From NCBI GenBank assembly GCA_947034895.1, contig OX344761.1, forward strand, positions 90,471,447 to 90,535,446: DNA of 64,000 nucleotides, read 5' to 3'. This DNA comes from Rhytidiadelphus loreus. Lineage: Eukaryota; Streptophyta; Bryopsida; Hypnales; Hylocomiaceae. Shown one piece after another: positions 11,915-52,232 of this stretch. Positions within the stretch are counted from its first letter, which is position 1. Every line of letters starts with the position of its first letter. The notes beneath the pieces are model-generated. The model had not been told where the DNA came from and made no database searches. It saw only the letters and a program-made list of their open reading frames with translations. Position numbers and translations under genes: made by a program.

Positions 11915-12213
11915 CAGGGTTGATGAATTGGAGCGTCCAGCCCAAAATCACGTCCAAAAAGCGGACGTCCGGACGCGAGGACGTCCAGATGTGACGGACG
12001 CGGGGGATGCTGGGTAAAACGGAGCCGTCCGTCCGATTTACCTCGGGGTAAATTCCGGCGTTGGAATTCCGACGCTGCCTTGGCCGTCCGAATTTCGACG
12101 CTACCTCGGGCCGTCGGAATTCCGACGCTACCTTGGCCGTCCGAATTCCGACGCTGCCTCGGGCCGTCGGAATTCCGACGCAGTCGCAGCTGTCCTCCTG
12201 AATTGCAACCCTG
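11915..12213. promoter_or_regulatory. Left subterminal repeat region of giant element 1
   Basis: Strongly CpG-rich against an AT-rich background. It begins CAGGGTTGATGAATTGG, then has GGACGTCCGGACG words (11940-11995), then four to five tandem GCCGTCSGAATTCCGACG units (about 12050-12185). A complementary CAACCCTG closes it at 12206-12213, so an internal copy of the terminus is also present. Such arrays are the expected binding sites of a hAT transposase. The 3' end of the transposase gene starts about 340 bp inward. Confidence 0.8.
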
Positions 12214-12552
12214 GTTGAAACAGGATTAACAATCATATCATCATGATCCTCTAGCCTTTCAAAAGCATTTCAATTACCACAAGTATGAAGCCAAATTTTT
12301 TAATTTTTTTCATCATCTTGCAATATATCATGCTTCATTGTAGAAAAGCAACATACAAATGACACAATCAATTGATATTTTGGATTGAAATCATCTTTGG
12401 TTAAGTGCCCCCTTCAAAAATAATGGTATTACCACCATCAATAAGTTTAGGAGTATTACAATCAAAGTCTCTAACAATCAATTGTCAGTACGACAATTTG
12501 TGCTTTATGTAATATGAGCACATGAACATTTAAGCCTATGTCCTTTCTATTT
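12214..12552. other. Spacer between left terminus and transposase stop
   Basis: AT-rich, no gene. It probably contains the 3' UTR and polyadenylation region of the minus-strand transposase gene. Confidence 0.5.
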
Positions 12553-15500
12553 CTAAGGATTGTAATCAAAATCTCCTTTCACCTCTGCCCCACTACTCTC
12601 ACACCCATTTCCCAATCTTGCGTCTTCGTCGTCGGATGTGTCTTCCATATCATCTGATGAAGAGCCTAGACATGTCGTTCTTCCCTCTTGTACTTGCGTG
12701 GATGAAAGGCTTCTTCTTCGTTTGTCCTTTTTGAGTTCTTCTTTTACTCTTAATAAGGATTTCCCATTTTGTTCCTTAATGCCAACAACACTTTTCATTT
12801 TCCTCTTTGAAACATGTGGACGTGCATCAAGAGGGTTTCCAATGGCTCTTGTTTTTTTCAATGGGGATATTGCAAAAGGTTGCATGACTCTCTTCTTATT
12901 GGCTCTAGGTGATCCCCCGCCCTCTAATTTTATTGTTGAGGGCCCTCCACTGCCTCCATGAATGATTATCTTCGGTGAGATTGAAGATTGTAGTTTAGGC
13001 ACTGACATTGTTGGGGGCCGTCGTGGTGGTGCATTACGAGAATGCCGAATGAACATTGAAGCCAATGTCTCATCCTTGTCATCGTCCGTGGACGATAAAA
13101 TACCTTGACTAGGCCGCCTTTCTTTTGAAATATTTGCAATCCGTTTTCCAAGCCCTAAGCTCCCAACGCCATCCAAAATTTGACTAGGGGTTTTCAATTG
13201 TGCACGTGGAGGGATGCTAGATGGTGGTACTTCAAAATCTTGCATGAGTTCCTTCTTGGCTTCTCCATTGATGCACAAAATTGGACTTCTAAACCCCACC
13301 ACACATAGATCAACATTCTTCTCCGCTTCATTTGCCTTAGGGATTGGAATACTTGGGTGACCACTGTTTGCACTTGCCAATACAATGGTTGACTCAACAC
13401 TCGTGTTGCCAACGTTCATTTTGACATTCACCTCCCAAGGCTCACGTCCTCCCGTGCCGATGTGTTTGTCATTTTCTTCCGCTCGCAACACTCCTCTAAA
13501 CGGAGATTCAAGTGGAAAAAGATCTTCATCCATTCTTTGCGTCCCATCATTGGGAATCGTTCTCTCATTGGCCTCTACATAAGCGTCTTCTTTTTCCGAT
13601 AGAACTTTTTCGCTACTCATGAACCCACTTCCATCCACAAATCTAGCTATGGAAGGTACATCTTCATCATACCCATCATTATCCTCATCCAATGGAAAGT
13701 CATAGATGTCTCGATCATTGGCTCGAAGATCTTCATTGGGCCGACTTGGACTATCGAACATTTCATCATCAAAATTGTGCCCGTCGTAATTCATGGCATC
13801 TTCGTCATCCAATAGAGGCCCAACTGACCCACCATCCTCCTCGTTGTCCGATATAAACCCCTCTGAATCTTCCGAATCCACGTTGTCATCGTACCACTTC
13901 TTCTCATCTTTTTCCTTTGATGCTGCCAAGACCTTGGAATTGGTGTACACATACACCAAGTCTGCCGCCCTTTGCGTTGTCAACTTGTTCCGAGATTTGT
14001 TGTGAACAAAAGAATAACTACTCCAATTTCGTTCACATGAAGATGAGGATACCGGTTGTGCCAAAATTCGCTTGGCTATTGGAGCAATGAGCTTCCCACA
14101 TGCACCTTCAAAATCCCACCAAGCATGCGCCGACAATTGTTGCTCATCTGGATTCAACATGTTGTGAAACGGAGGTTCCCTATGGCGGAAGGCTACAAAT
14201 TCTTTTACCACCGAGGCGTACTCTCCTTGTTTGCAAATTTTCATTAGAACACGCTTGCATGCGTCCATTGCATCTTGGTCGTCGGCTAGATCCTTATCAT
14301 GCAGAAGGTATGGATTCAAAAGAGCTCCTGCATAATGTAAATCTGTCTCCCCCATTCCATGGCGTTTGAAAAAGGATCGCTCCAATGGTTCGGCGAGGTT
14401 TGTTGCCAAACAAAAAGGAGGCCCTTCTAGGCTAAGGACATGTTTCTCTAAATTCCTCATAATATGCAACACCTTACCCATGCATGGCATCTTTGCATCC
14501 AAATCATGTAGACCATATACAACGGGGGCCACCAATTCTCGCAAATTTGTCCACCGGTCCCAATAATGCTCCTCTAAAATGAACCTCTTCACATCACGAG
14601 ACTTTGTGCGAGATTTGGCTTTGCCATTGTCGTTGAGTGTATTCACATATGCCACCCACTGTGGATCCACCACACTTTGTTGCAATGCTCTTTTGACTTC
14701 CAAGTTCCAACAAACGATCAATCATGATAAACACAGAGGCAAATCTTGTTTCCACCGGCTTCAACAAACTGTACTTTGTCTCATACTTCCGAAATATAGC
14801 AAGTGGCATGTGTCTTTTCTTGAAGAAATTCACTACGGTTTGGGCTCTCTTTACCGACTATTCAATCCATTTCTCCTTTCCCCAATCTTTGAGCAACAAA
14901 TTCAAGGCATGCACCACGCATCCTTGAAAAAAAATGTGTGGATATTTAGTGGATACCAAATTCCATGCTGCCGGATTCACTGGAGCATTGTCTGCGCTCA
15001 CTTGCACCACATTCGTAGGACCCACCTGCTCTATGAATTTTTCTAAAATTGTGGCCAAATATTGTGTTGTCTTTTCCACCCCACTAGTATCCACCGATCC
15101 AAGGAATTGCTCACCCGCTGAAGATACAAGCATGGCATTAATCAGTGGACGGTTTGTAACTGAGCTCCATCCATCAATGGACAATGTTGCTCCAAACTTC
15201 CTGACGCTATCTTCGGTCCTTCTATGCACCATCCCCACGACATTTGCCTTGGCTTGATCAAGCAATTTATGCCGTAGATCATGATATGATGGCAGAGTGT
15301 AGGCCTTACCATACTCGGAGGGGTTTTTCACCGCTTCTCTGAAAGCTACGTTTCGGGCCACTGAAAAGGGTATATTTGCCGCATAGAAGAAATTGGCCCA
15401 CACTGCATTCAAATTCTGTTTTTTGGTTTCTTGAAAGCCATCCAAAAGCCTACTTTGTGTTGGAGGCCTACTGCTTGAGGCCCTGCGAATGTCACGTCCG

Positions 15501-15883
15501 CTACATGTTTGCATACTTGGAATTACTTCGGAACCCCCTCCAACGACTTCTTCCGGTGTTGTACAAGAATCTTCTTGCGTAGAACATGGCATGCCCCTCC
15601 CATTTGACATATCACTTTCAACCATAGGCAAGTTGTTGACATCCACATTTCCATGAATAGGTCTTTCTGGAAATGCCCCATTGCATCGAAGAAATAGACT
15701 TCGAGTTTCCGCTGACAATTTGGGACACAAACTCACTCCCCTATCACGAGAACCGGAAATCGATTCATATCCTAAGTGACTCAACATACGGCTCGTTTTC
15801 TTTGAAAACACGTTATTGCAAGCCTTGCATTGTATTTTACTCGCCGAAAGGACGACATACCAAGAGGCAAGATCCTTGCTCAT
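12553..15883 (-). pseudogene. hAT transposase of giant element 1 (BED, DUF659, hAT dimerisation; long C-terminal tail), interrupted
   Basis: The start is taken at the ATG at 15883 (MSKDLASW), because a stop lies just upstream. Order of parts: a BED-like zinc finger (CKACN...HLGY); a DUF659/RNase H-like core with first Asp in SIDGW and second in SADNA, then GCVVHALNL; the L.P.ETRFAS segment; and the hAT dimerisation region with catalytic Glu in SCERNWS and HNKSRNKLT. A tail of roughly 430 residues follows, acidic, then basic (KKDKRRRS), then acidic. The joined length of about 1,110 codons is well above usual plant hAT transposases (about 600-800). Lesions: an in-frame TAG at 14858-14860 and a one-base frame change near 14700-14720. 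This copy should not make full transposase unless supplied by readthrough or another copy. Confidence 0.9.
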
Positions 15884-16120
15884 GGTCACAAGTTCCAAAC
15901 TTGAACTTCTTCAAATTCGCAAGTTTTGGAAAATGTAAACACAAGTGAACCAATGTTTAAAATTGGGTTTACGGTCGTGCATAAAGCCTTGAAATTCAAG
16001 GCCCCCCCTTCCACCAAACGATGCATTACCAAGCAAGGGACACAAAATAAATTGCAGCTCCTAGCCCTTGGAAATCGTAGTGTTCAGTGGATTTGGAGTG
16101 CCTTCATACGCCTTGTTTCT

Positions 16121-16375
16121 TCTACTTATACTTTGCAACTGAATACAGGTGGCGCTGACCGTTATTCAGAAAGATGAATTTTAAAAACAGTATCAACGGA
16201 CTCATTCTCCCCAGAATGGCCCGTCTGATTTGACCATCCCATCCGAACATTTCGTCGGATCGGGCCAACTCGTCAGAATAGGCCAGCTCGTCGGAACAGG
16301 CCGTCTGATCTGACCAGGCCGTCCGAATTGGCCGTCGGATCAGCACGTCCGATCTTTTTATCCGGATTCGGGACT
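16121..16375 (-). promoter_or_regulatory. Transposase promoter with element-1 CpG repeats
   Basis: Reading on the minus strand, repeats of GTCGGAT/GTCCGAT/GTCGGAACAGGCCGTC type fill 16200-16375, followed by a TATAAGTA box at 16123-16130. The box is 240 bp before the transposase ATG. The words match those at the element ends and its other promoters. Confidence 0.65.
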
Positions 16376-16974: not shown

Positions 16975-19900
16975 CTATTTAATTCTATCATTGTTGCCAT
17001 CTCCCGAACCACCAGACAGACCAGAGGACCCCTCTGTATTGCGTTGCGCCACTTGAGTGGCAATCCTTGGACTTCCGCGACGAGAAATTCCCCCAGGGCT
17101 TGTTGAGCTTAAGAACCGATTTGATTTGGTTGCCCTGTCCACAACGACAAATTGTCGTATTGTTTTCGGTGAATAGTCATCGTCATCTTCAATCTTCCGC
17201 TTCTGTTTGCGCTTCGGAGTCAAATCCACATCCATCGCCTTTAAGGCTCTCAGAGCAGCATCCACTCGATTTACCAACACATTCACCATATGGTCATCAC
17301 TAGGGTTGTTTACCCTAAACCCTTCGGTGACTCCTTCCAATAGGAACGCCCTCCATTGACCTATGATGTCGGCCACCCTCCTATCAAATGCCCCGGCCAC
17401 CTCCACGAACGAATCCCCTTTGTTTGATTCTCCATCTGTTTCCACCTGAACACGAATTGATGCAGCTTCTTCCAGCTTAGATAAAAACAGTGCCTTGCCT
17501 ATGGGAACGTGATTGTATGCCTCGTACTGTTCACTGAAGCCAAGAGGATGCTCCACCTCTATCCAATTCCCATCTGGCCCTTTCTGTACTTCTTTTTCGG
17601 GAAACCAGAAAAATTTATGGTGTTGCATGCTCCAATGCCCTCCCATACTGCGACAAAACAATTCACGAGCCTCGCCATCATCAATGGCACGAGCCCGCAA
17701 CTCCACTTCCATATTTTGGGTCATCCACATGAAGGAATCCACCGGTTGCATGGATGCATCATACAATTCATGCTTCTGTTCCTTTGGATCCCATATGAGG
17801 GGTTTCCCCCAATGCGAATAATTCTGAAATTTGTATGGCCCTTGGTCAAGTGGAAGAGTCCATCTATTGTATTCGTGGCCGGGGGGCATACCTTCCAAGA
17901 TGCCAAACATCTCGTAGAACCTCGGACTCAAAGGAGAACGGCACTCGGCACAAGCGGATCGAAACAGAGATGCTTGCACAATGCATTTGATATGAAAAAC
18001 GTGGCGACAATGGCCCATGGTGAAGGCTCCTTCAGGCCCAAAAGGACCTTGGCAAATGCTACAATGACCCTTCAACATTTCATTGCCTGGATTAGAACCA
18101 TGCACAACTATCTTCTCGTTCTTCTTGATGTGTGTTGAAAGCGTTGTGTAAGGAGTCCATCCTTCTTCTACTTCAAAAGTCCAATTGATGTCGCGATTGT
18201 GGGCTAGCGATTCCTTCTTGGCGTGGTTCAACCGCTCGTACATGGCATCCATGTCTCCCCAACATGTCATTGGCATAGACCCCCAAGAATGTTGCTCGAC
18301 CGCACTTTTGAATTTCTTCAAAGCAGCCTCAACGACATTGCAATCTTCATCCGACTTCATTGCAAGGGTGCGAACCCCGATCATTGCCCGAGATGCTAAA
18401 GACAGTTTGTCTTGAAGTTGTTGTATCCATGTCAACCACCGAGACTCCAATCCGCTCGCCAGTAGACATTCATCCATGTTCTCCACTCGTTTCATCCGGT
18501 CCAACCTCGATTGAAGAAGGGCATTTTCTTGGTTTACCTCATTCAATCTTCGATTCAACTCGCTCCAAGTTGCAACCTCATCCACCTTTCTGGTCTCAAG
18601 CTCCTCCACTGCTTTGGCCTTCTCAAATGGAAGAGAGAGTTGATCGCTTTCTTGAGTTTCTTGCGACCTCGGTAGTTGGATCTCCACTGTAGAGAGGCCC
18701 TTTTCTTCATTTCGTTCCTTCAAATATTTCTCGCTATACTTCTTCCTTGACGCCACCAATTGCCTTCCCAATGACTCACAATTTTCAACGACCCTTCCAT
18801 ACTTTTTACTCCACTCGTCATTCTTCTGCTCTAGCTCCACGATTGTCTTCAAGTAGTTGTACTTCTCATCAAGAAGTGTTAGCGCTCCACTAGCAAACTT
18901 GTGAAAAGCCAATCCACCCTTCAATAGTGGATGCGATAATGTGGATAAATTTCTGGCCAATTCCATAGCCAACGGGGCCATTTCCGCTACAACTTCAGCA
19001 GAACATGTTATTGCTTGAGCGGATGTCACAAAATCGTGAAGCCCAAGTTTGTTTTCGGTTGCCGTAGAGCACTCGGCCTCGTTCAAGGGTTCACCTTCTC
19101 TCGATCCATCCATTTGAGGTGGGTACTCAACTCCGCACCTAAGTATGATTTCAAGATGCTCCGGATTTGGGATTTGACCCACATATTGCAATCTTCTTGG
19201 AGTTAAAGTGCACAAGAGCAGATACTTGCGCACAATCTCCTCGCCATCAATATTGGAGGTCGTTGCCACGTTTTGAAGTCGCTCTACGAACAGACCTGAC
19301 GGTTGAACTTCACGGATCGAGCTCAATATTGGACTAGGTGGCGTTGGCGAGTTCACGTTTGGAGGAATGTACTTCAAACTATCGAGAGCATCGCTGTCTA
19401 TAAGCCGTTCAATTGTAGCATTTGCTCTTGCAACTTTGTCTTCATCCATGTCTTCTTGCGACGAGGAAGAGGGGGCAACTTCTTTCACGAGGTCGTGCTT
19501 GTTTGGAGCAATGCTTTGCTCACCCGTGATTGGTACATGAATCGAGGTGGGTAAACAAGTCTCCGGATCCTTGAAATTGACCTTCCGAAATACACCTCCC
19601 GAAGAGGCATTGGTGGCCTCCGCTCCTAGTTGTGTGGGGTCCAACTGTACTGCGTCGCCTACACCCTGTGAAACCTTCATTGTAGGTGTTCTAGTATTTT
19701 TGAATACTATTTTAGATTCAGCCGTTTGTGCCCCGTGGTTGTATAAATCGGGAATATCCTTTTGATTTTTCGGAAGTTGAAGCGGCAATTGCGATGTCGT
19801 TGGAAACGTGCTCCAATCCACCTTCCAACCCAATATGAGTTCTGCATACACCATAGATGCCGTGCTGTAATTTATGTATCCTTTACTCCTTGCCTTGTTG

Positions 19901-20229
19901 CCGAAGAGGGCCTTCTACACCTCGTCTGATTGATGTACAAAATGACTATCCTTGCAAGTCCACGGCTTACAATTGAAATATCTTGTGTGGGCTGCGTGGC
20001 AATCCCGAGGCCACAACTTGTTAATGTGGTACATTTTGACAAATTGTTTGCACATTTTAGAGCTCCAATATTCGGCCTCCACTTTCTCCCAGTCAGGCTC
20101 CGCTTTGATGTTCGGATCATCTAAAATGTCATACTGCAACGCATGTCCGGCCCCCCTTGTTTTAATTTTCTTCGGTGGAGGTTGTGTTGAAGTCGTCCCA
20201 ATAGCCCCTCCATCACCTTCCGCGGCCAT
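16975..20229 (-). CDS. Coiled-coil RING-H2 protein of giant element 1 (one in-frame TAG)
   Basis: Begins at the ATG at 20229. An N-terminal domain (CKQFVKMYHINKLWP ... AELILGWKVDWST) is shared with the 30010-31014 protein and the RING protein of element 2. It is followed by a Ser/Pro-rich region, then long coiled coils (LEQKNDEWSKKYG; ELNRRLNEVNQENALLQSRL). A RING-H2 finger of C3H2C3 type follows (CSIC, HCRHVFHIKC, CAEC) at about residues 720-767 of 1,085. After it comes a conserved FYEMFG...MPP..EYN block and a GHW region, then a basic C-terminus (KRKQKRKIEDDDD). The RING suggests an E3 ubiquitin ligase; the target is unknown. A TAG at 19915-19917 lies inside the N-terminal domain. The remaining 959-residue frame is open, with an internal ATG at 19854. 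Confidence 0.88.
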
Positions 20230-20439
20230 GCTTGGTACTTTGAATTGAAGAACAATTCAAAGTAAAAAATTCGGTCAATTGAAATATACGTGTAGGTAAT
20301 TTAAATCTGCCAAAGTCACACCGTAATAAAATATGTTGGACCCCTTCTCTCCACCAAGTAAGAGCAACTAGCGCCAGAGGCAACAGCAGCACATCTGACT
20401 TGGCAAGCTTGGAGAGAAGAAGTGAAAAGAAATGAAGGG

Positions 20440-20870
20440 CCCGTCCGATCATATAGCCATCCGAAACCAACCCTAATACCGGTTCGGTTCCGGACCGCGA
20501 CCCGTCCGACTTTGGGCCGTCGGATCGGACCTAGTTGTCCGATCGGGCGGACCGAACAGGCCGTCGCCGTCCGATGAGGGCGTCGGAAGAGGCCATCGGA
20601 TCCGACGTCACCGGCCGATGAGGCCATCGAATCGAACACTGCCGTCGGATCGAACACGCCGGGGCTGTCGGATCGGGGCGTCGGATCAGGCCGTCGGATC
20701 GGGCCGTTGGAAGACCAAGTTTCGGAGTCGCCTGCGCCCGATCAGGCGGACCAAACAGGCCGTGGCCATCGGATTAGGCTGTCGGATCAAGCCGTCGGAT
20801 GGATTTTAGGTCTTTAGGTCTTCGATCAGGCCATCGTCTCCTCTGCACGGACCTGCTGAACTGTCATCCT
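20440..20870 (-). promoter_or_regulatory. RING-gene promoter with dense GTCGGATC repeats
   Basis: The densest array in element 1: GGCCGTCGGATCGG and GCCATCGGAT words repeat through 20440-20830. A TATAT box on the minus strand lies at about 20449-20457, 220 bp before the RING ATG. The words are the same as those at the right terminus (35905-36170) and the kinase promoter. Confidence 0.8.
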
Positions 20871-22627
20871 CCAGCTGTGTACGCACTGTTCAAACAACGG
20901 ATCCTTGAAATAGTTAAATCACTGTAAAAAATAATCAATGAAATGTAGAAAGCATCCAATGTGTGAAAGCTTATTGTTCATTTTCTTCCCTACATTGTGA
21001 GATTGTTTTTAATGCTAAACCCTAGACCCTAAACCCTAAACCCTAAACCCTACAAATTATTAAATTTTCATATTAAATATTCACGTGCTCAACAAAAAAT
21101 TGGTGCAGCATGCGGCATCACTTTTACGATTTCACCGAGTATTCCCACCATCCCAATATCCACTAGTAGCAATTTTGGCTCGCCCTCTATACATGGTTAC
21201 ATGGATACATTATTACATTGCAATTTGAAGACATTTATTTTTTTGGATCCACAAAGTACATGACTTCTTCTATGATTTTAAGATATGATTTAAAAAGTCA
21301 ATGTGGAAATGTTGGTTGAAAATTGAAATGTAATTTGAATGTAGAGACCATTGTGTAATTGATCCATTGAACTTGTAGTCTACATGTGATAATTTAAATG
21401 TGCTATACATGTGAACCTTGTCGACTAATTAGTTATTCATTTCTATGTTTCCGGGTATGAATTATTACATGACACCGTGGAAATTCATAAAGTGAAAGGT
21501 TGTCCCACAAAATTGACAACTGAATATGATGATGAGATGATCACTCATGTACGAGAATTAATAGAAGGAGAACGTCACATATGATCATTTGAAAGTTTTT
21601 TATTTACTTGTAAAATGTACTACTCATTCATGAATTCATGACATTGTAATATGGAAAAAATTTCACCATATACCCTATATTGATATATTTTTTCATTTCA
21701 TTGAGAAGGGGGGGAGAGGGGCCAACTTGAAGGCCTTCACCAATTTTTCTAAAGTTGAATTCATTAATCTATTAATTTAGGTTTCATTAATTATATGTAT
21801 GACGAAATGTTAAGCTTTCATACCTTGCAGTATTGCACAAAAATATATTATATTATAGAATTATGGATAATCTCTTTATTCAAAGTTCTAGTCTATTAGA
21901 GCATGTTCTTGAGTGTTGCCAAAATAAATCTATAAATCGGTAGAGTTCATTTCTGCATGCAATTGCTAGTGAGATTGATAACTATTAACTAGAAAAGAAG
22001 TTCTACATGTTTTTGTGGAACTGAAAGAGAGTGGGCACATTTGAGCAAAAAATAAATATTTCTTCAAATAAATTATGGAAAGGTAGTTTTTCTACTTTTA
22101 CATGGTCAACAATTATGGAATCTCTCTTTCTTTACTCAAAAAATGCAGTTGTAAGTGCCCCATAAGGCCATAACCGTCTTGGGGGGTGCACTTAGTTCTA
22201 CTATATTACTATAACAAATCACGTGTGAACAAGTGGTTCTCTAATAAACTATAATTTCAACCTAAAATTTTGAACATTGTTTAATAATGACTATAGCTTT
22301 CTATTGCCAAAATTTCCAACTCAAATAAAATATGAAATGATTTCTAGAAGAGGTTGAAACTTGAAAATGAACTAAAATGGCATGTTTTTCAATTGAAATA
22401 ATTATAGAGGACACATTTAGATGACCATTGAGTCAATATTCAATTCAAAATGAGCTTTCAATAATGAGTTATTTTTAGGAATTTTTTGTTCATTTTTTAG
22501 ACAATTTTTTCTTATATAATAGAGGGGTGTGAAAGCTATTTTTCAGTTCTACAGTGTATCTTTTTACTTCAAAAATTTGTAACTAATTATTATTAACAAA
22601 TAAAAATATCAATAATTCAAAACATAC
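20871..22627. other. AT-rich spacer with telomere-like CCCTAAA run
   Basis: Around 21015-21052 there are about five tandem copies of the plant telomere unit AAACCCT (one with a G substitution). They could be an interstitial telomeric tract or a telo-box-like promoter motif about 800 bp upstream of the RING start. The remainder is AT-rich and shows no gene. Confidence 0.7.
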
Positions 22628-36235: not shown

Positions 36236-36243
36236 CATTCAAA
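36236..36243. repeat. Target-site duplication of giant element 1 (right)
   Basis: CATTCAAA, identical to 11907-11914. Confidence 0.9.
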
Positions 36244-41800: not shown

Positions 41801-42308
41801 CCCACTTGTCATCCAACTCCTTCCTCTTCGCAACATTAAAAGCATCCTTCATACGTTGCTGAAGTAATGACCCAGATCTTGTGGAATTTGATGCAGCGAG
41901 ACTTTGGGACCTCTGTATTGCATCATTCCCTTCAGGGAGAGTAACCCCTTCAGCTTGGGCGTCACCTGAACCCCCTCCCGTCACTTCGTTTTGAAAGGAT
42001 TGGCTTGAACTTGCAACTGGAGTTGCTCTTGATGGACCAGTGGGAATTGATTCTCCTTCATACATGTCCTCGGGGCTCAATCGTTGAGGAACAAAGTTTG
42101 CACAATTTGCAAATCGGTGGCGCATGGCTCGCGTTGCATTACGACAAATTGACCTCTCGGACTTTGCGCCATATCCAAAGTGAGCAAAAGCGCGCTCGCG
42201 TTTATAGGTGAATGTTGCATTGCAAAATACACAACTCACTTTCCCCCCGTTCTCAGAGAAATTATACCACGGTTCCCATTCTTTTGTTTGCTTTCGTTGA
42301 CTTCCCAT
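38826..42308 (-). pseudogene. hAT transposase of giant element 2, two in-frame TAG stops
   Basis: The start is the ATG at 42308 (MGSQRKQTKEW). A BED-like finger (WYNF...CVFCNATF...HFGYG) is followed by the DUF659/RNase H core with CTDG (first Asp), CTDNAANM (second Asp) and GCMAHALDL, then SETRFACNF. The dimerisation region has WW, SCERNWSMYSF (catalytic Glu) and HNKVRNRL. A tail of some 400 residues is acidic, includes an RG-rich segment (GRGRSFVRGRVRGR), a basic HKRFKCSRRH and an acidic end. About 1,160 codons in one continuous frame. TAG codons lie at 41571-41573, where a Trp is expected after the first catalytic Asp (DGW), and at 40767-40769. A single G-to-A change explains the former. 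All catalytic acids remain. The tail composition parallels element 1. Confidence 0.9.
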
Positions 42309-42558
42309 TGCGTTCACGACGAATGCAAACGTTTTCTTGGAGGAGGTAGAACTGTAGAAGAGGCTATTACACCAAATGAAAAGGACAAAATAGTAGTTAG
42401 CGCCAATCAACTGCTTGAACTGACTTTTACATCACCTCAACAGCTAACTAGGGCCATTTGTCACCCAAGTAGACTCCCAAGGAGCTCAAAGTGAATTGAA
42501 GTCCAAGATGATGAAGCCAAGATGACAAATGTAAAGAAGTCAATCCGACAAGCTTGGC

Positions 42559-42670
42559 TTTATAGCCTGGGAGTGTAGGGGTGCGGACCTCTTCTGCAGG
42601 AGCAGGGACGTCACACAATTCCGACGCGTCCACGCCCCGGCGCGACGCGTCCACGGACGGCAAGAGGGGG
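42559..42670 (-). promoter_or_regulatory. Transposase promoter of giant element 2
   Basis: Read on the minus strand, GGACGCGTCG and GGGGCGTGGACGCGTCGG words (42590-42665) precede a CTATAAAG box at 42558-42565, about 250 bp before the ATG. A diverged second copy of this upstream region lies at 44030-44310. Confidence 0.75.
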
Positions 42671-43320
42671 AGGTCCTACCATAGACTTTGGTACGAATTC
42701 CGTGGTGGGATTCTTCCTTCCCATAGAGAGAGGAGAATCCACTAATGTAGTCAGCTCTTAATTTGAGCACGGGGAATATCTTCAAGTCAATGGCTGCATT
42801 AAGAGGTCCAACTACTTTTTGAGTTCAATGACAACGTATTAAAGCATGTCACTCCCTTCTTGAGGCCAAATTTCAAGTTCTTGCCTTCATCAAGCACTTG
42901 AGAAGTAGGACCCATGTAAAGTTGGAACCCAAAATAAAAATAGAAAATGAAATTGAACTTCCAAACAAGAAAGAATAAATTTGTGTAACTAAAATCCCAA
43001 AGGATTTCGAGTCCTAATGAAAGTCAAGGTACATAATTGTTTAAATTCAAGTTCAAAGTTTATATTTCATTCTTATTAAGAAAAGGTGTTTGTGATTTTG
43101 GATTTGAAGTTTACAAATCAAACTATTACCAACGTATACTTCTCAAGCTTTTGGTTTAAGTCTTCATTTTTTAAATACAAAGCTACAAGGTTTTGGATTT
43201 AAATCAAATACAAATCATAATGCTTTAGAATATGCTTGAAGGGGTTTTTTCCGTGAAAAAGGGTACAAGGATTTAGGGCTTAAAGACTTTAACCAAAATT
43301 TCTTGTAATGGGTAAAATAG

Positions 43321-43865
43321 GAAGGGTGGGTATTGAAATGAAATGCTAGTTAAGTGATTTTTTAATTCAAGGGCAACGGTTCATCTCATTATTTTGGGTA
43401 TGGGGATAGCAAAGCGGTTTGGGTCTTTGGGAATGAAATGAAGCAAAATTGTTTATGATTTCAAATATTCAATCATTAGACTCCACCCTCTAATTTGTAT
43501 AATGGGATCCTAGAGCTCTAAACTCTAAAGCAAGTCTAGGACTTAGGAGGGGTGGGTATTGAAATGAAATACTAGTTAAGTGATTTTTTAATTCAAGGGC
43601 AACGGTTCATCTCATTATTTTGGGTATGGGGATAGCAAAGTGGTTTGGGTCTTTGGGAATGAAATGAAGCAAAATTGTTTATGATTTCAAATATTCAATC
43701 ATTAGACTCCACCCTCTAATTTGTGTAATGGGATCCTAGAGCTCTAAACTCTAAAGCAAGTCTAGGACTTAGGAGGGGTGGGTATTGAAATGAAATACTA
43801 GTTAAGTGATTTTTTAATTCAAGGGCAACGGTTCATTTCATTATTTTGGGTATGGGGATAGCAAA
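43321..43865. repeat. 226-bp tandem repeat, about 2.4 copies
   Basis: The word GGTGGGTATTGAAATGAAAT starts at 43325, 43551 and 43777, exactly 226 bp apart. The units are nearly identical, so the expansion is recent. The third copy is truncated at about 43865, where the 13-bp array begins. It lies in element 2 between the transposase promoter and the RING gene. Confidence 0.95.
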
Positions 43866-43870
43866 CCCTT

Positions 43871-44010
43871 GGAGGGAGTTCAAAATTGGCTTGGAGGGAG
43901 TTCAAGGAGGGAGTTCAAGGAAGGAGTTCAAGGAGGGAGTTCAAGGAGGGAGTTCAAGGAGGGAGTTCAAGGAAGGAGTTCAAGGAGGGAGTTCAAGGAA
44001 GGAGTTCAAA
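43871..44010. repeat. 13-bp minisatellite (GGAGTTCAAGGAG)n
   Basis: About ten tandem copies of GGAGTTCAAGGAG with A/G variants. Because 13 is not a multiple of three, all frames stay open, which produces spurious repetitive open frames here. Confidence 0.95.
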
Positions 44011-44029
44011 ATTGCAATTGGAATTGGAA

Positions 44030-44310
44030 TTGGAATCCGCGGCCGGACGTCCGCGCCCTGGCAGGACGTCCACGCCTTGACGTCCCCGCCCTCACGCCCT
44101 GACCTCGGATGCAAGAACTCTCTCCACCAACGACGGGGGGGAATGGAATTGACCTTGAGATTTGGAATTAGCATGGGATTCTTCCTTCCCATGGAGAGAG
44201 GGAAAGAGGGAAACCAATTAATGCAGTCAGCCATTAATTTGAGCTCGGGGAATTTCTTGAAGTCAATGGCTGTATTAAGAAGTCCAACTACTTTTTGAGT
44301 TGAAAGAGAA
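44030..44310 (-). repeat. Second copy of the transposase upstream region
   Basis: GGACGTCCGCGCCCTGGCAGGACGTCC-type CpG words (44040-44105) are followed by a stretch (44150-44305) matching 42680-42830: GGGATTCTTCCTTCCCAT, ATTTGAGC.CGGGGAAT, TCCAACTACTTTTTGAGTT. The two tandem arrays lie between the copies, so the promoter region was duplicated about 1.45 kb apart in direct orientation. Confidence 0.85.
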
Positions 44311-46819
44311 TTCATGGAAAGATGTGTCTCCTTCATGTATCGCCCTTGGTCTTCTTCGCTTCTCCAAGGACTTGAGAAATAGTCCCCACACCCCAAAAAT
44401 GGGATTTCTAGAGAATTAAAACTAAGTTGCACACTTTCAAGAAAACAAATATAATGAGATGCTAGAAGTTTTAGGATTTGTAATGGTAAACAAGGTACTC
44501 TATTTTGAAAATTCAAGTTGAAGACTTAAAGGATGAATGTTATAGTTCTCCAAAATAGAAGCTAAAAGGGTTTGGAATTCCAAAAAAAAGGGTTTTAGAA
44601 ATGTTTCAACGAAATTTAAGAGAATTTGAGCAAGTATGGAAATTTGGGGTATTCAATGATAACAATTTCAGAAAATTTGAGCAAGTATGGAATGTATTTG
44701 AATTTTTTTATAGAAGCATACCAAAAAAAATCCTACTATATTTAGGATAGTAGGATGTGTGTAATTAATTATAACAAATATTGACTGTTCAAATTTTAGC
44801 TTATAAGAATTTCGGATGATGAATGGTGGAGGCAGAAAATTGTGGTTATTCTATGAATTCATTCTTCATGGCAAGTTGGCTAAATGAGTACATGACTACA
44901 TGCTTCAACATTTTTACAACAATACAACTTTCCCAAAACAATTCCACCCTACATTCTTAATTTAAACTTTACACTTTACAGGCTTACAACACAAATTATG
45001 GATTACTCTAATATATATTTTGTAATTCATATAATTTTATTTCCACCTTTACCTTTAAGAAATCAGAATAATTTTACTTTTATTCCTAAATTATTGTAAA
45101 AACAAAAAATAAGAAGAAAAAATATCGGAGGAACTAGAAAAATGTATATCAATTTTGTATATCAATTACATAAAAGGATTCATTTGGTTTCAACTTCAAG
45201 TTTAGGACGTCAAGATGGAATTCAACTTCAAGTTGTTTCACTTATTTGATACTTTGATGTGGCTTTCTTTTGTGTGAAAAATAAAATAAGCAATTGGATT
45301 TTTTTTTGGTTCACCTCCATTACTACTTGCACCTCCCCCCCAAATTTCAAATTAACCCCTAAAGTCCCATTGTCCCCTGAGGGGACACTTTATAATTCGG
45401 GCAGGTTTCTATGGGCTGAAATTTTATCCTAATTTTGCAAAACTTTTTTTGAAGATAGAAAATGTAATAAGCTTTGTGGGAATATAATTTTTATTTCAAT
45501 CGGTGCCTGGAAGCCAAAGTTATACCACAAGATGTGTAGAATTGAATTCGGTGGGTAGCAAAAGAAATTGAATCTTTAGAATGCAATTTTCAGATTTTTG
45601 GTTTTTTAAAAGGTTATGTTTGTTTGCTAGAACAATCTCACCATTGGGATTATTGTATTTCAATCCCATCTAAGAGCTATTAATTGTTTAGTTTTTCTTT
45701 CAATTTTAAACGTGCTTCTACAGTTCTACACTTGTACTTGACAATTTCTTGAAGTATGAAAATGAAGTTGTTATTTTTTGAATTTTTTTTCATAGACTCC
45801 CAACTCAAGTCTTCAACACAATAAATTTTTAATTCAAATTCCATAGTACACATTTTTTCTACAAATAGCAATAAAAGTCATCTAAAATTGCAGTTTAGTG
45901 TTGAAGAAACCTTGTTTTTTAAACTTTGAATGCTCATATAGTCATATCTTTCAATCTGTACGGTCTAACTTCATGAAATTTTAACCACATAATTTCAAGC
46001 AAGTAAATTTCAAGATCCTACGGTTCAGTTTCAAAAATACAATTTTGTTGGAATCTTGGACAACGTAGTAGAAATGGCAGTTTTTATTGTTTTTAGACAG
46101 AAAAAATGTCATTAGGGAGGTGATTGAATTGTTTTCCTCTTTTTCGTCATATATGATTATATGCTGATTTTCTGCAATAGAAAGTTAGAAATGATAACAA
46201 TTAGAAACATTCGCGAACAAAATTGCAATTTCTGTAAATGATATAGAATTCAAAGTTTTAAGCAATAAAAATACCTGATTGTTATTCAAGCTAAAGTAAG
46301 AAATTTTACCATTTTTGGATGGATCAAGTCATTCAAAGGTTAATGTATCCCTTCATACATTAACATCAATATATTTGTAACAAAATATACATTAATGTTA
46401 AATTGTTAATATCTTTTTAATTTTTATACACATACAATAATATTAATACATATATATTTACATGAATATATACCTTCATACACTCAAAATCCGAAATGCA
46501 CTTATTCTTAGGCCATGAGTACATTATTATATCCACATATCACACATGCCATATCATGCAAAGGAATTCAACAATTGAATATATGTATTTCATATGCATC
46601 ATGTAGTACAAAAATTGAAAAGTATACATTATACAATACTTTTTCCACGAGAAAATATGCATATCCACAAGTCTTTGTCTAATACTGTTTGTAGTACCGA
46701 ACTACCAAAGTAGCAATTCTATAAGCCTCGGTAATGATAAGTGCCAAAGTCTATAACTGTATATGCAAAACATGCTTTGTTAATTAGTAATTACTAGTTT
46801 AGCACACTAAAAAATGCAC
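44311..46819. other. AT-rich spacer with dispersed repeats
   Basis: No gene. 45340-45530 and 45905-46115 are members of repeat families also found in giant element 1 (35610-35800 and 34985-35240). The end near 46820 should contain the RING gene's 3' UTR. Confidence 0.6.
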
Positions 46820-49186
46820 TCAGTCGATGTTCATTGGACTGTTTGCAGTGCCACTAGGTCCAGCCTCGTCGTCGTGTGCGCCGCGTTGCATTGGAAAATC
46901 TTCGTTGGAGCCTAGTTGAAGTCTACGAACCGCAGACCGAGTTCTCCTCGCTGGTCCGTCTTCTTCTAGAATGGCCCTCATGATTTGTGATTGCTTGAGA
47001 CTCTCCAGAGCTCGGCGTGTATCCGGGCTATGTTGTTCAAGCAAAAAATCCAGCCCTTCGTTTCTGAAAGTTTCCCTCCACTCAGATTCCGATAATTGAG
47101 CAAGCTCCGCGGGGTCAGGCATGTCAGGGTCCTCCCCAATACGAATTCCATTGTCATCGGTGACTCGAACTCCATCAACGCCCCATAACCATCGCCGAGG
47201 GTGAGGTCCAAATTGAAACTTGAGTCCAACCTCATCCCAATGTCCATTGAAGCATTGAAAGAAAAAATTCCGCCGTCCTTGGCTATGCTTGTCTTTCATC
47301 GGAATCAAATGGTGGCAGACTTGGACAATTTGATCGGGGTCAGTCTCCCAACCACATTCAGCAGCGACTTGTGTCTTGTCCAACGATGTCATTTGTAATT
47401 TCCAACTCCACACCAAGTTTGTTCCCCACATTCTACGGTGATCTGGGGCATTCGTGGCATTGTATTCCCAATGTGGTGGCATGTATGGGACCAAGCCAAA
47501 CAACTCGTACAAGCGCTCGTGGAAGGGAGCCTTGCACATTGCGCACCGACGACGAACAATCATGAAACTGATGAGGCAAAATGGGTGGTATACATGGTTG
47601 CACGTGCCCAACTGCATTCCACCTTCAGGGCCAAATGGATTCATACAAATGGGACATGTGGTCCTGTCATGCACAAAACTTGAAGGATTTGGCCACTCCA
47701 ACAATGGGTTGCCTTTGTAGTCGACCTTCGACCCAAGTTGGTTTTTGAAATCCCAATTGTGTTTGGACCAATCAATGATTGTTTTTCCACCATCAAGCTC
47801 AATGATTGCCATGTTGGAACTGAAAAGATCATCCACAAGGGCCCATGAAGTCAAGCCAAACACCCTTTCTTGATTGTGCTCACTGTAGTAGTGGTCCAAT
47901 TTCTTGAACTCTGCTACCAGTTGTTGTGTCTTGTCAACGGTGAACACGCATGCCAACTTCCACTAGTAGTACTGCTCCACCAAGGCATGCAAACGATTTT
48001 GTAATGTTTGATTTTCGCCTCGCAAGTTGTTGAGCTCAAGGTTGTTGTCCATACCCATGCCCCGAACTTCAGTCTGCATTGGTACGTTGCCGGTGGCCAT
48101 TATTTCGGGAAAGGCCAATGAATCTTCTTGTGTAGACATGGCAGCATCACCTGGAGCATTTTGCCTCAGAATTTGAGAATCCCGAGGAGGTCCTTGTGCA
48201 TGTCCTCGTGGATCTTGACCTTCGTTCATCATTTGTGCTGCTTGTAGAGCTTGCCGAAGCTCCTCTATGTCACGTGCTTGTTGAGCAATTACTCTGTCTT
48301 TGAGCGTGATGTCTTCTCGTAACTTGCCCACATCTTCATATAGAGAATGTAGTTCATCACCTCGGTCTTGTAACTGCACCCTCAAGCTTTGTATGGTGTC
48401 TGCAGCAGCCATGACATCAACAACTCCAAGAGTTGGTTCATCAGGTGCTTGGAATTGCGCCTGAGCAACTCCAAGTACTGGTTCAACGGGGCCCTGGACC
48501 TCTACACGAATATTTGGTTCTGGAAGTTGTTCACGAGGTGCACGTTGCGCCCTTCTCCTTTGTGCATGTTGTTGTCCTCTGGGGGTTAATTCCACCACAA
48601 CATGAGATCCATCAGAGTCATCGTCAGTAGTAGAATCCGCCGTCTCGTATGTGTCAGGCGGCTCAATACGTGTGATGACCCTGCCCAGCCTTCCTTTGGG
48701 ATATCTCATAACCCCCCTTGGAATCATTCCATTTGCTGGTGTTGGTATCTTGATACCATCTGCTGTGGTTGGCATGCCCTTCAAAGTGGACCAATCCACC
48801 TGCTTGTTCAATCTCACCTCCGCATGTACACCTCGTGCAATGAAAAGGTGAATTTCATTCCTTTTCACAGTGGGTTTTTCGTATAACACTTGGTATACTT
48901 CGATGCATCTTTGTTTAAAGGCCTCATCGATGCAGTGTTTCAAATTCGCTTTATGAAATCGGCGGTGGTAGTTGTGTCGCTCTTCAGGGAAGGCCTTGTC
49001 AATGTGGCACCATTCTACGTAAGTGATGCAAGTTTCGAAACTCCACGGTTCTGGCACGTCATTCCAGCCCCTAAATGCCAGTTTTTCGGGGTTTTGAAGT
49101 ACGTGTAACCTCTTCCGATGTTTGTTACCCTGCCTTAGTCGAGTCCTGTCTCGTTCAGCTTTGTTGGTTCTTGGTGGTGTCGCCAT
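46820..49186 (-). CDS. RING-H2 protein of giant element 2 (one in-frame TAG)
   Basis: The start is the ATG at 49186 (MATPPRT). An N-terminal domain (WSFETCITYVEWCHIDKAFP...HAEVRLNKQVDWST) is homologous to that of the element-1 RING and Gly/Tyr-rich proteins. A Pro/Gln-rich linker and a coiled coil (SLRVQLQDRGDELHSLYEDV) follow. The RING-H2 finger (CPIC, TCNHVYHPFC, CAMC) lies at about residues 510-555 of 788, and the conserved (L/F)YE(L/M)FG...MPP..EYN and GHW regions come after it. A TAG at 47963-47965 separates the N-terminal 407 residues from the RING half. The frame is otherwise open. As it stands two partial products are possible. Probable E3 ubiquitin ligase; substrate unknown. Confidence 0.88.
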
Positions 49187-49249
49187 CGTGAATTTTTTTG
49201 GCAAAAACTTGTATACTGTAAAGGGCCCTGCACAACGCCAACGACCAGC

Positions 49250-49438
49250 TCAATGAAGAGGTGGAGGATTTGGAATATGCAGGGCGGGGACTAATGGGGC
49301 GGGGACGGACTTTTATAGTCCTCACTCTGCCTGTTAGGGCGCGGACGTGTCGGGCGGGGCGGGGCGGGGACGTGTCGAGCCAGGGCGCGGATGTGTGGCG
49401 GCCAGGGCGCGGACGTGGGAGGGGCGGGGACTATAAAT
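49250..49438. promoter_or_regulatory. Bidirectional RING/kinase promoter with GGGCGSGGACG repeats
   Basis: Two TATA boxes point outward. CTATAAAA on the minus strand (49311-49318) lies 125 bp before the RING ATG, and CTATAAAT on the plus strand (49431-49438) lies about 175 bp before the kinase ATG. Between and around them are repeated GGGCGGGGACGTGT and AGGGCGCGGACGTG words, the same as at this element's left end. A symmetric, shared control region is the simplest reading. Confidence 0.85.
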
Positions 49439-49610
49439 CCCATGTGCTCCCTCATTTTTCCTTTGCCAAGTCCACGCCCTACGCCTCACACCTTTGTTTG
49501 CGCAAACGACCCTTGGAAGTGAGTTTGGTGGGTGATTGGGCTTGGCCCACATATTGCACCCGGTTTTTTTTATTTTCTCCGAAACTTTGGTGGTTCTGAA
49601 ATATTGTACA

Positions 49611-51186
49611 ATGGCAGGACAAGGGAGTGGGTCATCGGGTCACCGCTTGGTGTTTGAAGACTTGGATGCAATTTTTGAGGTGGTGCCTCCAGCCACGAAT
49701 GTGGCAGGGGCTTCAGGGTCATCCAATCCCTCATCATCCAGCAGGTCGAAGCGTAAAAACCAACCCAATCCTGACATGCCCCCTCACGAATATGTGCTCG
49801 AGGCTAGAGCAATAGAGGTCAATTTTTACACGCGACGAAGTGTGGGAATGATGTGCAGAGAATACGTGAATTTCAACGAAGAAGGGTACCACAAGTTGAA
49901 TGCTGAAGTGCAGCGAGAGTTGGAGACCAAATTTAGAGCATCCGAATGATTCAACAACTATCAAGATTACTGGTTGCACTCTGAGTGGTTGGATAAACAA
50001 GTGTCGCAGCTGACCACCAATATTGTGGCGAATTGGTGTTATCACACGAAGAAGAAAGATGATGGTAGTGATTGGGACACGCATGACAAGGAATTTGGTT
50101 CAAGATTGTACCAAATTCAGAAGTTCTCCCAACAATTTTCTTCCTCGTGTAGAAAGAAACAAGCACCATGGAAAGCGACGCTTGAAGACCAAATACGAGC
50201 TCATTGTGTGAGCGGAACATTCAAGTGGTTGGAAAGTTGCGTGAAAGTGAATCCCATGCCGAATCAAACTATGACTGGATCATATGGGACTGTGAGGAAG
50301 GTGGTGCTCACGAGACTACAAAGCATTCCCAGTTGGATTTGCTTCGCCGGGAAGACTTTGAAGACCTCGAATGAGAAGGAGAAGCGCCAAGCTATTGTAA
50401 GCGAGGCGGGGGGTGTCCAGTGATACATCCTAGTATCGTAAGACTTGCGTACATCCATCCAAAAACAATGGAAGGCTGTACGCTATGGCAGAATGGAGGG
50501 TCTTTGATTTCTTTCTTGGCCAAGTACAACTCAAAAGTAAGTGAATCGTTGGATGTGGATGACATCACGAGACAACATGATGCAGGGTTGACGCAGGAAG
50601 AACTCGGTTGGGTTGCAACTTATCGCCGAAACCGCGTGAATTTGGCTTTATCATTGCTTGTCATAGTGGGAAAATGCCATGAAGCAAAATATTTACACAA
50701 TGACATTACTCCATCCAACGTTTTGCTCCATTTTGATGAATGGAAAGAAAACACAGTGTACATCGGGATTTGCGATTGGGGGCTTTCTGGTCGAGTTGTA
50801 GAGAAGGAGCCATCAAGGTATGGTTATCGAACCATGGAGGAGCTCCAACGGGAGAAAAAACAACGAAAACATGCAGCCCCTGAGTTGTTCTACATGGAGA
50901 GAAGGGGTCAAAGACCTCACTTGAAGTCATGCAGAAAAAACACTTCTACTCCATGGCTGCTGATGCATATGCAACTGGATGGATAGCATATCAAATTTGG
51001 AAAGAAGAGTGGGATCCAAAGTATTTTACGACCAAAAACCCAGAGCAGTATCAACATTTGAGGATTCAACTACTGAGCCTCCAGAAAATAGATGTAGGCG
51101 AGAGGGCATCTGTGTCTGATGTTCTAGACATTTTGAGGATGGCACCTCACTGTTGGACTATGCCCGACTGTTGTTATCGGACATAA
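49611..51186 (+). pseudogene. Kinase-like protein of giant element 2, broken
   Basis: The ATG is at 49611 (MAGQGSGSSG). Homologous to 32837-34333: the N-terminal VNFY...Y(V)xFNEE region, Gly loop (TGSYGTVRKVVL), candidate Lys in CFAGKTLK, hinge (WQNGGSLISFL), catalytic loop HNDITPSNVLLHF, CDWG, and a clear APE motif (AAPEL) absent from the other copy. Lesions: TGA at 49947-49949; a frame change at the G-run near 50405-50415 together with loss of some 45 residues relative to element 1; and another frame change just before 50929. It cannot make a complete kinase. Confidence 0.87.
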
Positions 51187-52164
51187 TATATTGTTTTTAC
51201 TTTTTGAGCTCTAGTATGTGATAGTTTTATAGGCAGACCACACATTTTTGGTTAGAAGAGCATCAAGCATGTGTATTTCATGGTTGCTACACATTTCATA
51301 CATAAAGATACGGACATATGGTGAAAATCTTGTAATATGCAATTTGGTCTTTCTTCCATCAAGACAGTTGTATGACTTCTGTGAATTTGTGAATGTGTAG
51401 TAAACAAAGTAGCAAACAACTAATTAGATTTGAAATTGATTTTTTAGAGTTTGATATACAGAAAAAGGCAAAAAGCTTAGAATCATTCGGTTTGATCAAT
51501 GAGTAAAAAATTATGAGGATTATGAGGATTTTCTGTTTGCAGGCAGTTTTGGATTTCTTGCTCTAAAATAAACTTTGACATCCTTTATCTTATCTAATTT
51601 TCAATATTTTTGGACAAAAATAAAATTATAGGATGTACATACATTATTACAACATTTCGACCATTGGAATTGTAAATTTTCAATTCCATATTTAAATTGT
51701 AAATAATTTAGTATTTTTAATCATTCTTCTAGTACTACCTACTTACTATTTTTTTAATTTTTTCCTATATGTTGTACTATTCCAAATGATCTGAAATTTT
51801 TCAAGCATGTGGCCAACTTGTCTAGGAAAACAAATCCAAAGAAGCACCACCATTTAGGTCATTTTTTCATAGAAATGTGAGCTTGTGAAGTGCAGCTGCC
51901 CTGCTTTTCGCAGGGTCAAAAAAATGATTTTAGTTAATTTGAAATTTTGAATGCTTATATCTTGCAATCCACCCGGTGGAAATGTCTGAAATTTTTACCA
52001 CAAGTTTTGATACTATATAATACAACATCCTACGGTTAGATATGTCAAAAAAAGTTTTTTATCAAAATTTTGGTAGTTGTACTAGAAATGACAGTTTTAG
52101 AGAGTTTTTGGTGAAAACATAGTGACGGTCCTTTAAGGGTTAAAAAAAGTCAACTTTAGTGTTG
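51187..52164. other. Dispersed repeats at the right side of element 2
   Basis: No gene. 51430-51640 matches 11430-11655 directly, and 51660-52145 mirrors 10545-10990. The same family therefore exists inside element 2 and in host DNA left of element 1. Confidence 0.65.
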
Positions 52165-52232
52165 ACCACATCGGACGGGCGAGACCTCTATCGGACGGGC
52201 GAACCGGACGTCCGTCCGGTATGACAACCCTG
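52165..52232. promoter_or_regulatory. Right terminus of giant element 2
   Basis: Two direct ATCGGACGGGCGA words, a GGACGTCCGTCC palindrome and the terminal inverted repeat ending in ATGACAACCCTG. Followed at once by CTTTGACC. Confidence 0.93.

Follow-up and report, generated by a model that had tools for sequence, protein, structure and literature searches.

In the moss Rhytidiadelphus loreus, all four genes of a giant hAT transposon (E1) are preceded by arrays of a short motif repeated at the ends of the element, and this placement of the element-end motif is the new point here. E1 was found together with a second large element (E2) in the window, i.e., the whole stretch of 64,000 nucleotides that was analysed. 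hAT elements are textbook one-gene transposons. We propose, with a probability of roughly 0.6, that E1 and E2 are members of a bryophyte hAT family whose elements are large and were originally self-mobile, with a fixed set of transposase, RING and kinase genes as an integral part, regulated as set out below.

E1 extends from 11915 to 36235 (24,321 bp) and E2 from 38090 to 52232 (14,143 bp), each opening with CAGGGTT at its first position and closing with AACCCTG at its last. The flanking target site duplications are:

11907–11914, no strand: left duplication of E1, CATTCAAA
36236–36243, no strand: right duplication of E1, CATTCAAA, 8/8 match to the left copy
38082–38089, no strand: left duplication of E2, CTTTGACC
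52233–52240, no strand: right duplication of E2, CTTTGACC, 8/8 match to the left copy

Among the 13 possible CAGGGTT...AACCCTG pairs of the whole window, two, namely E1 and E2, had flanks identical at 8/8 positions, where 0.0003 were expected; the two elements with these termini and perfect 8-bp repeats, as claimed in the preliminary description, were thereby confirmed. The terminal inverted repeat of E2 is perfect over 21 bp, and that of E1 consists of just the 7 bases common to both ends, CAGGGTT. We take short terminal inverted repeats of the CAGGG type to be a mark of hAT elements, which E1 and E2 fit. The genes of the two elements are:

12553–15910, minus strand: E1 transposase with DUF659, Dimer_Tnp_hAT and a weak BED finger; ATG at 15883
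16975–20256, minus strand: E1 coiled-coil RING-H2 protein; ATG at 20229; a single in-frame TAG at 19915–19917, where homologues have Trp
29929–31014, plus strand: ORF5 of E1, open; ATG at 30010
32837–34333, plus strand: E1 kinase-like protein, intact, 498 aa
38826–42431, minus strand: E2 transposase, in one frame with two in-frame TAG (41571, 40767)
46820–49249, minus strand: E2 RING-H2 protein; in-frame TAG at 47963–47965 (n = 1)
49605–51200, plus strand: E2 kinase-like gene, broken by TGA at 49947 and by frame changes near 50.4 and 50.9 kb

The order transposase (minus), RING (minus), kinase-like (plus) is common to both elements, in agreement with the preliminary description, and ORF5 is a fourth gene of E1 that was absent from the three-gene set given there. 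The hAT-like nature proposed for the elements was upheld by Pfam, which revealed DUF659 (2.6e-33 and 2e-26) and Dimer_Tnp_hAT (9.5e-09 and 1.6e-09) in the transposases of the two elements, as expected of RNase-H-like hAT transposases with a Dimer_Tnp_hAT C-terminus. Reading by eye showed DG, DN and CERNWS blocks in both, presumably the hAT catalytic acidic residues and the CERxW-type block. As judged from the 8-bp duplications, the ends and the transposase domains, E1 and E2 are hAT elements. Their proteins are diverged, as had been stated, with E1–E2 identities of 33% over 356 aa and 41% over 266 aa for the transposase, 26% over 279 aa and 30% over 80 aa for the RING protein, and 33% over 166 aa and 24% over 197 aa for the kinase. 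Because the same order is found in two diverged elements and the cargo is about as diverged as the transposase, the cargo is probably integral to the element.

Stops or frame changes disrupt five of the seven genes; the E1 kinase gene and ORF5 are open. A TAG (14858) interrupts the E1 transposase, as does a frame change near 14.6–14.7 kb, in place of which there may be an unrecognised intron. Reading of TAG as a sense codon (amber recoding) was considered, prompted by five of the six in-frame stops being TAG and one TGA. It was ruled out by conservation of Trp at two TAG sites (E1 RING protein versus P0001, P0002 and P0008; E2 transposase versus that of E1) and by a TAG terminating the E1 RING protein at the end point of its homologues. 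The in-frame TAGs look like nonsense mutations.

In the kinase alignment A2, the VAIK-type Lys K216, the helix-C Glu E235, D333 of HxD, N338 and D356 of DFG were invariant in 31/31 rows, with the motif variants HND for HxD and DWG for DFG. Pfam Pkinase was detected at E ≤ 0.01 in 30/31 rows, and the E1 kinase scored 21.6, below the cut-off of 31.7. By their conserved residues, the kinase-like proteins are candidate atypical kinases. All eight C3H2C3 zinc ligands were invariant in the five rows of the RING alignment A1; the Pfam RING scores of the E1 and E2 proteins were slightly below the curated cut-offs, and comparison of the RING profile with structures gave matches to RING structures, e.g., RNF24. 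These proteins are E3-ligase-like, with a putative ubiquitin ligase role. ORF5, for which Pfam returned no match, has an N-terminal domain in common with the RING protein (32% identity over 128 aa).

The motif CGTC[C/G]G was derived from the element ends and then counted upstream of the genes. Its distribution in the non-genic parts of E1 is:

11915–12552, no strand: E1 left end, 14 CGTC[CG]G sites, including a 26/27-bp tandem array at 12059–12181
21257–28928, no strand: AT-rich middle of E1, 7,672 bp, one motif site, no ORF of 150 aa, dispersed repeats
35686–36235, no strand: E1 right end, 12 CGTC[CG]G sites, including three 70-bp tandem units at 35915–36123

The extra length of E1 is in part non-gene DNA, i.e., the 7.7 kb of this middle, repeats of which recur in the left flank. 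A nested element behind the size of E1 gained partial support only, from a dispersed repeat at about 25195–25549. A tRNA scan and an Rfam search of the window gave 0 tRNAs and 0 matches, respectively.

Upstream of the E1 genes, the layout is an array, followed by a TATA-like box and the leader word TTGGTGG:

16253–16351, no strand: array upstream of the E1 transposase, 5 sites; TATA-like box at -247, TTGGTGG at -134
20442–20798, no strand: array upstream of the E1 RING gene, 10 sites; TATA-like box at -226, TTGGTGG at -128
29466–29720, no strand: array upstream of ORF5, 13 sites; CATAAATAG at about -308, TTGGTGG at -175
32438–32623, no strand: array upstream of the E1 kinase gene, 9 sites; TATA-like box at -240, TTGGTGG at -162

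In total, the E1 ends (1,188 bp) hold 26 CGTC[CG]G sites and the regions upstream of the four E1 genes (4,064 bp) hold 37, compared with 1 site in the remaining noncoding DNA of E1 (9,846 bp) and 3 in the flanks plus spacer (25,504 bp). The hexamer CGGACG occurred 12 times in the E1 ends, 10 times in the E2 ends and 0 times in 23,666 bp of flank. When start positions were drawn at random inside E1, the observed sum of sites was reached in 1 of 20,000 draws, and a minimum of five sites at each of the four starts in 3 of 20,000. TTGGTGG lies on the sense strand 128–175 bp before the ATG in 4/4 E1 genes, a number reached in 0 of 20,000 draws; this test is post hoc, since the word was chosen by eye from the promoters. 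The upstream regions are not simple copies of each other, as blastn among ten end and upstream regions matched just array units (E1 right end versus E1 RING upstream) and the E2 inverted repeat.

The promoter pattern of E2 is weaker than that of E1:

42621–42659, no strand: two motif sites upstream of the E2 transposase; CTATAAA at 42559 (minus)
49298–49437, no strand: divergent E2 RING/kinase promoter with four GGCG[CG]GGACG (49298–49415); CTATAAA at 49312 (minus) and 49431 (plus)

Each E2 upstream window contains just two CGTC[CG]G sites, the RING and kinase genes sharing one pair, and TTGGTGG is missing before the transposase and found at -834 for the RING gene. All nine copies of the variant motif GGCG[CG]GGACG in the window lie inside E2, four of them between the RING and kinase genes; a pair at 44048–44090 precedes no identified gene.

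The preliminary description had proposed that the RING and kinase proteins serve the element. This idea is fitted by the end-motif array at the E1 RING and kinase promoters, and the roles of the two proteins stay inferred. Since end-motif arrays precede the E1 genes, the cargo looks wired into element regulation, which suggests that the RING and kinase genes, with their end-motif promoters, are working parts of the element. In the proposed mechanism, the fixed gene set would comprise the DUF659-type transposase, the coiled-coil RING-H2 protein and the atypical kinase-like protein, with ORF5 as an extra in E1. A single DNA-binding protein encoded by the element, with the BED-finger transposase as the likeliest candidate, would read the CG-containing arrays, its binding leading to excision at the ends and setting the expression level at the promoters. 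With the same protein acting at both, transposition and gene expression would therefore be coupled. More speculatively, the transposase or host silencing proteins might be post-translational targets of the RING and kinase proteins, whose action could set the amount and timing of element movement. A wider version, which we hold only tentatively and with the odds somewhat against it, is a bryophyte giant-hAT regulon, where one DNA-binding protein cuts the ends and switches all genes, a RING-kinase module controls it post-translationally, and about a hundred copies reside on moss sex chromosomes annotated as ordinary genes.

Alternatively, the arrays could be targets of VANC-like anti-silencing, in which an element-encoded RING-family protein or ORF5, via the shared N-terminal domain, strips silent marks from promoters and ends, and the transposase binds the ends separately. 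We consider this rather unlikely. The motifs targeted by VANC are arranged in tandem within noncoding regions of VANDAL elements, and related elements differ in them (PMC5735166, PMC10398659), and the arrays of E1 and E2 are also noncoding, with a different variant per element. The CpG observed/expected ratio, with the motif masked, agrees with such a role in being 0.67–1.06 upstream of the E1 genes versus 0.37 in the E1 middle and 0.46–0.53 in the flanks; however, the right end of E2 reaches just 0.44, a high ratio may stem from the GC richness of promoters, and Pfam finds no VANC relationship. That the arrays are mere GC-rich promoter sequence, their likeness to the ends being compositional, would fit a GC content in array regions that is high for this window (0.38–0.48 versus 0.32–0.35) and the two CpG of the motif. 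This is very improbable, given that first-order Markov expectations from each segment's own dinucleotides were exceeded 8- to 17-fold upstream of the E1 transposase, RING gene, ORF5 and kinase gene (5 versus 0.3, 10 versus 1.2, 13 versus 1.0 and 9 versus 0.6 sites, respectively), that E1 coding sequence of equal GC holds only 5 sites in 9,223 bp, and that the longer GCCGTC[CG]GA was found 11 times at the E1 ends, 12 times upstream of E1 genes and nowhere in the coding sequence of E1, its middle or the flanks.

The RING and kinase genes could also be passengers, captured in a Pack-TE-like manner by an ordinary hAT and useless to it. Precedent for gene-carrying hATs is given by the 14-kb fungal ToxhAT, which carries ToxA, and five broken genes out of seven would suit genes without use. 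We nevertheless judge it improbable: set and order are identical in two elements whose proteins are 24–41% identical, array, TATA-like box and leader word are common to the four E1 promoters, and the homologues are full-length and single-frame, with conserved catalytic and zinc-binding residues. Pack-TEs carry captured fragments of identifiable host genes; the RING and kinase genes are full-length families with multicopy relatives, and the protein matches gave no single-copy host parent. Least probable of all, and hardly to be credited, is a selfish toxin-antidote-like system at the gamete or spore level of the haploid moss life cycle. It draws on analogy to the meiotic drive genes described for the Starship Spok block (PMC10175614) and on the sex-chromosome-like locus tags of named relatives in Ceratodon purpureus, but no toxin-like domain was found, and the transposase promoter shares its design with the cargo promoters, which points to element regulation. 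Ordinary single-copy host genes, the case set against the elements in the preliminary description, are unlikely for RING and kinase, because both families are multicopy in Ceratodon purpureus.

Among known systems, Ac/Ds and other hATs share with E1 and E2 the 8-bp target duplication, short inverted ends and a hexamer repeated at the ends. In the 4.6-kb, one-gene Ac, the hexamer AAACGG recurs in the terminal 200 bp and serves as a transposase binding site (PMC3260210); the hexamer of E1 and E2 contains CG and is a candidate binding site. Unlike Ac, E1 and E2 measure 14–24 kb, carry extra RING and kinase genes, and have the hexamer also before internal genes. The VANDAL/VANC elements (Arabidopsis MULEs) are likewise multi-gene plant DNA transposons, with noncoding tandem motif arrays diverging between relatives (PMC5735166), whereas E1 and E2 have a hAT rather than a MULE transposase (VANA) and RING and kinase cargo, and Pfam gave no match to VANC. 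The KDZ, EnSpm and Sola giants (PMC12477816), the fungal Starships (PMC10175614) and ToxhAT resemble E1 and E2 as large DNA transposons with accessory genes; the KDZ, EnSpm and Sola giants and Starships have other transposases, and ToxhAT is a fungal hAT. No constant RING-kinase set is mentioned in the cited passages on these elements, and no Pfam match to the Starship tyrosine-recombinase captain was obtained among 14 ORFs scanned. The best-ranked papers of the mainly open literature contained no report of a giant hAT with RING and kinase genes; absence from print is not claimed. No relatives were confirmed in viral contigs or in bacterial or archaeal genomes, and RING and kinase matches shared no metagenome contig among the matches listed.

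If the proposed reading is true, the constant RING and kinase set behind an end motif would represent a plant mobile element equipped with a signalling and regulatory circuit of its own and, besides VANDAL/VANC, a second, unrelated system by which transposons coordinate expression, excision and silencing escape.

Ceratodon purpureus is a model for UV sex chromosomes. Its kinase and RING proteins belong to the same families as the E1 and E2 cargo, the kinase cluster numbering 126 sequences and the RING cluster 107, counts that may include two assemblies and isoforms; the evidence consists of protein matches. The kinases KC19_VG055000 and M758_3G001500 show full-length identities of 42% and 50% with the E1 kinase, and M758_UG082900 matched the RING profile at 1.5e-80. 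All three are annotated as plain hypothetical or kinase proteins. If the proposed reading is true, more than 100 annotated kinase and RING sequences of this moss may be transposon genes, a point to weigh when its sex-linked genes are counted. The representative of the RING cluster is a 317-aa model that begins inside the RING.

The 7-mer CAGGGTT is not rare in the window, with 11 matches against 8 expected. Among the 13 possible facing pairs, exactly two showed flanks matching at 8/8 positions, compared with an expectation of 0.0003, which upholds the preliminary description of two elements with CAGGGTT termini and perfect 8-bp direct repeats. These hAT-like elements, E1 and E2, are:

11915-36235: E1, complete-looking insertion with CATTCAAA on either side
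38090-52232: E2, complete-looking insertion with CTTTGACC on either side

The perfect terminal inverted repeat of E2 was found to be 21 bp long; that of E1 is 7 bp.

The transposases of both elements matched DUF659 and Dimer_Tnp_hAT, and by-eye reading revealed the D, D and CERNWS blocks in each. The order transposase (minus), RING (minus) and kinase-like gene (plus) was confirmed for E1 and E2 alike, as was the claimed divergence of the encoded proteins, with identities of 24-41% across the transposase, RING and kinase families. This low identity implies that the set was not recently copied from one element to the other. An additional plus-strand gene, ORF5 (29929-31014), is present in E1 only, and its product is 32% identical over 128 aa to the N-terminal portion of E1 RING. 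Two genes are open, ORF5 and the E1 kinase (498 aa); the remaining five of seven are broken:

14858, minus: E1 transposase, in-frame TAG plus a frame change
19915, minus: E1 RING, single TAG at a conserved Trp
40767 and 41571, minus: E2 transposase, two TAG
47963, minus: E2 RING, single TAG
49947, plus: E2 kinase, TGA plus frame changes

Of the six in-frame stops, five are TAG, two of which replace conserved Trp codons, reflecting either mutational bias or chance.

Complete members of the RING family are single-frame proteins of about 1,120-1,250 aa, composed of an N-terminal domain, a coiled coil, a RING-H2 and a conserved C-terminal region. None of the eight zinc ligands varies across the five-row family alignment, and the RING profile matches solved RING-H2 structures. 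Kinase family members are about 490 aa long, with HND replacing HRD and DWG replacing DFG. In an alignment of the E1 kinase with 30 of its 52 matches, excluding 22 shorter or partial ones, Lys216, Glu235, Asp333, Asn338 and Asp356 are invariant. A Pkinase match at E ≤ 0.01 was obtained for 30/31 members, the E1 kinase itself being under the Pfam cut-off. Even the closest solved kinases are only distantly similar (MAPK, with E = 0.0024), and the E1 kinase alone gave no match below 0.05 to solved structures.

Relatives of both cargo proteins come mostly from metagenome contigs. For RING, at least 14 matches were found in one search, which scored the 7,999 candidates with most shared words, and 18 in another, together at least 31 distinct proteins; for the kinase, 52 were found. 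Apart from one 'Bacilli' record, described below, the matches with an organism name are from the moss Ceratodon purpureus, which contributed 2/52 kinase matches and 1/18 and 0/14 RING matches in the respective searches. Its clusters at 90% identity hold 126 kinase and 107 RING sequences, counts that possibly mix two assemblies and isoforms, and the RING cluster is represented by a truncated model. The VG and UG locus tags of the representatives, which lie on 110- and 112-Mb contigs, were taken to denote the V and U sex chromosomes. By these counts, both families are multicopy to a similar degree in this moss, as would be expected if they travel together. The window itself probably derives from a bryophyte. 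One kinase relative, P0016, with 65% identity to the E1 kinase, is recorded under a 'Bacilli bacterium' MAG and is probably eukaryotic contamination thereof.

Enriched k-mers were learned from the element ends first and then mapped across the window. In the terminal 660 bp, CGGACG occurs 12 times in E1 and 10 times in E2, with no copy in 23,666 bp of flanks. The 90 sites of the end-derived motif CGTC[CG]G are distributed as follows:

Distribution of CGTC[CG]G in the window
E1 ends: 26 sites / 1,188 bp
Upstream of four E1 genes: 37 sites / 4,064 bp
E1 coding: 5 sites / 9,223 bp
Other E1 noncoding: 1 site / 9,846 bp
Flanks and spacer: 3 sites / 25,504 bp
E2, total: 18 sites

Between −600 and −100 from the E1 ATGs, 5, 10, 13 and 9 sites were counted (transposase, RING, ORF5, kinase). 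With random starts, the observed sum was reached in 1/20,000 draws, and at least five sites at all four starts in 3/20,000. The longer unit GCCGTC[CG]GA has 11 copies at the E1 ends, 12 copies before E1 genes and none in E1 coding sequence, the E1 middle or the flanks. Downstream of each E1 array come a TATA-like box and then sense TTGGTGG (−134, −128, −175 and −162), a word chosen post hoc that preceded 4/4 starts in 0/20,000 random draws.

The E2 pattern is weaker, with two CGTC[CG]G sites upstream per gene and TTGGTGG not common to its genes. The E2 form of the motif is GGCG[CG]GGACG, all nine window copies of which lie inside E2:

E2 left end: 3 copies
Near 44.05-44.09 kb: 2 copies
E2 divergent RING/kinase promoter: 4 copies

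This promoter has one CTATAAA per strand. No identified gene follows the 44-kb pair, which may stem from a partly duplicated E2 transposase upstream region. A 130-bp direct repeat (80%; 42726-42855 and 44202-44331) has motif sites near both copies.

Transposases of the hAT superfamily are reported to bind short repeats near the ends, e.g., Ac on AAACGG (PMC3260210), and the arrays are putative binding sites of the element's own transposase. If they are, the transposase could regulate its own gene and the cargo, since every E1 promoter carries an array. Alternatively, a VANC-like anti-silencing protein might read the arrays. VANC targets are described as tandemly repeated motifs in noncoding DNA, with differences from one related element to another (PMC5735166; PMC10398659), and the pattern in E1 and E2, noncoding tandem motifs with a variant differing between elements, is the same. 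Under transposase and VANC-like readings alike, RING and kinase count among the element's own genes. Their products might control transposase amount or timing post-translationally or remove a host silencing factor, roles proposed because they are natural for E3-like and kinase-like proteins.

Accessory genes are already known from giant DNA transposons, including KDZ, EnSpm and Sola-1 (PMC12477816) and Teratorn and Starships (PMC10175614). A fungal hAT with ToxA is known as well. The review 'Giant Transposons in Eukaryotes' does not contain hAT as a whole word, and in the literature searched, with partial coverage, no account was found of a hAT family in which RING and kinase form a constant set.

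Several other features were observed in the window:

About 5779-9684, minus: decayed Ty3/Gypsy-like retroelement, its RT, RNase H, integrase zinc finger and integrase fragments spread across several frames
25195-25549: dispersed repeat in the E1 middle, with left-flank pieces up to 91% identical (380-758, 2089-2310 and 2762-2971) that include a 137-bp tandem array
43318-43865 and 43893-44009: within E2, near-perfect 226-bp tandem repeat and 13-bp array of nine copies (GGAGGGAGTTCAA)
35674-35772 (E1) and 45409-45507 (E2): noncoding, 82% over 100 bp, far above gene similarity, perhaps a shared small repeat
59640-59930 and 60328-60611: right-flank tandem arrays with 17/33-bp and 82-bp units
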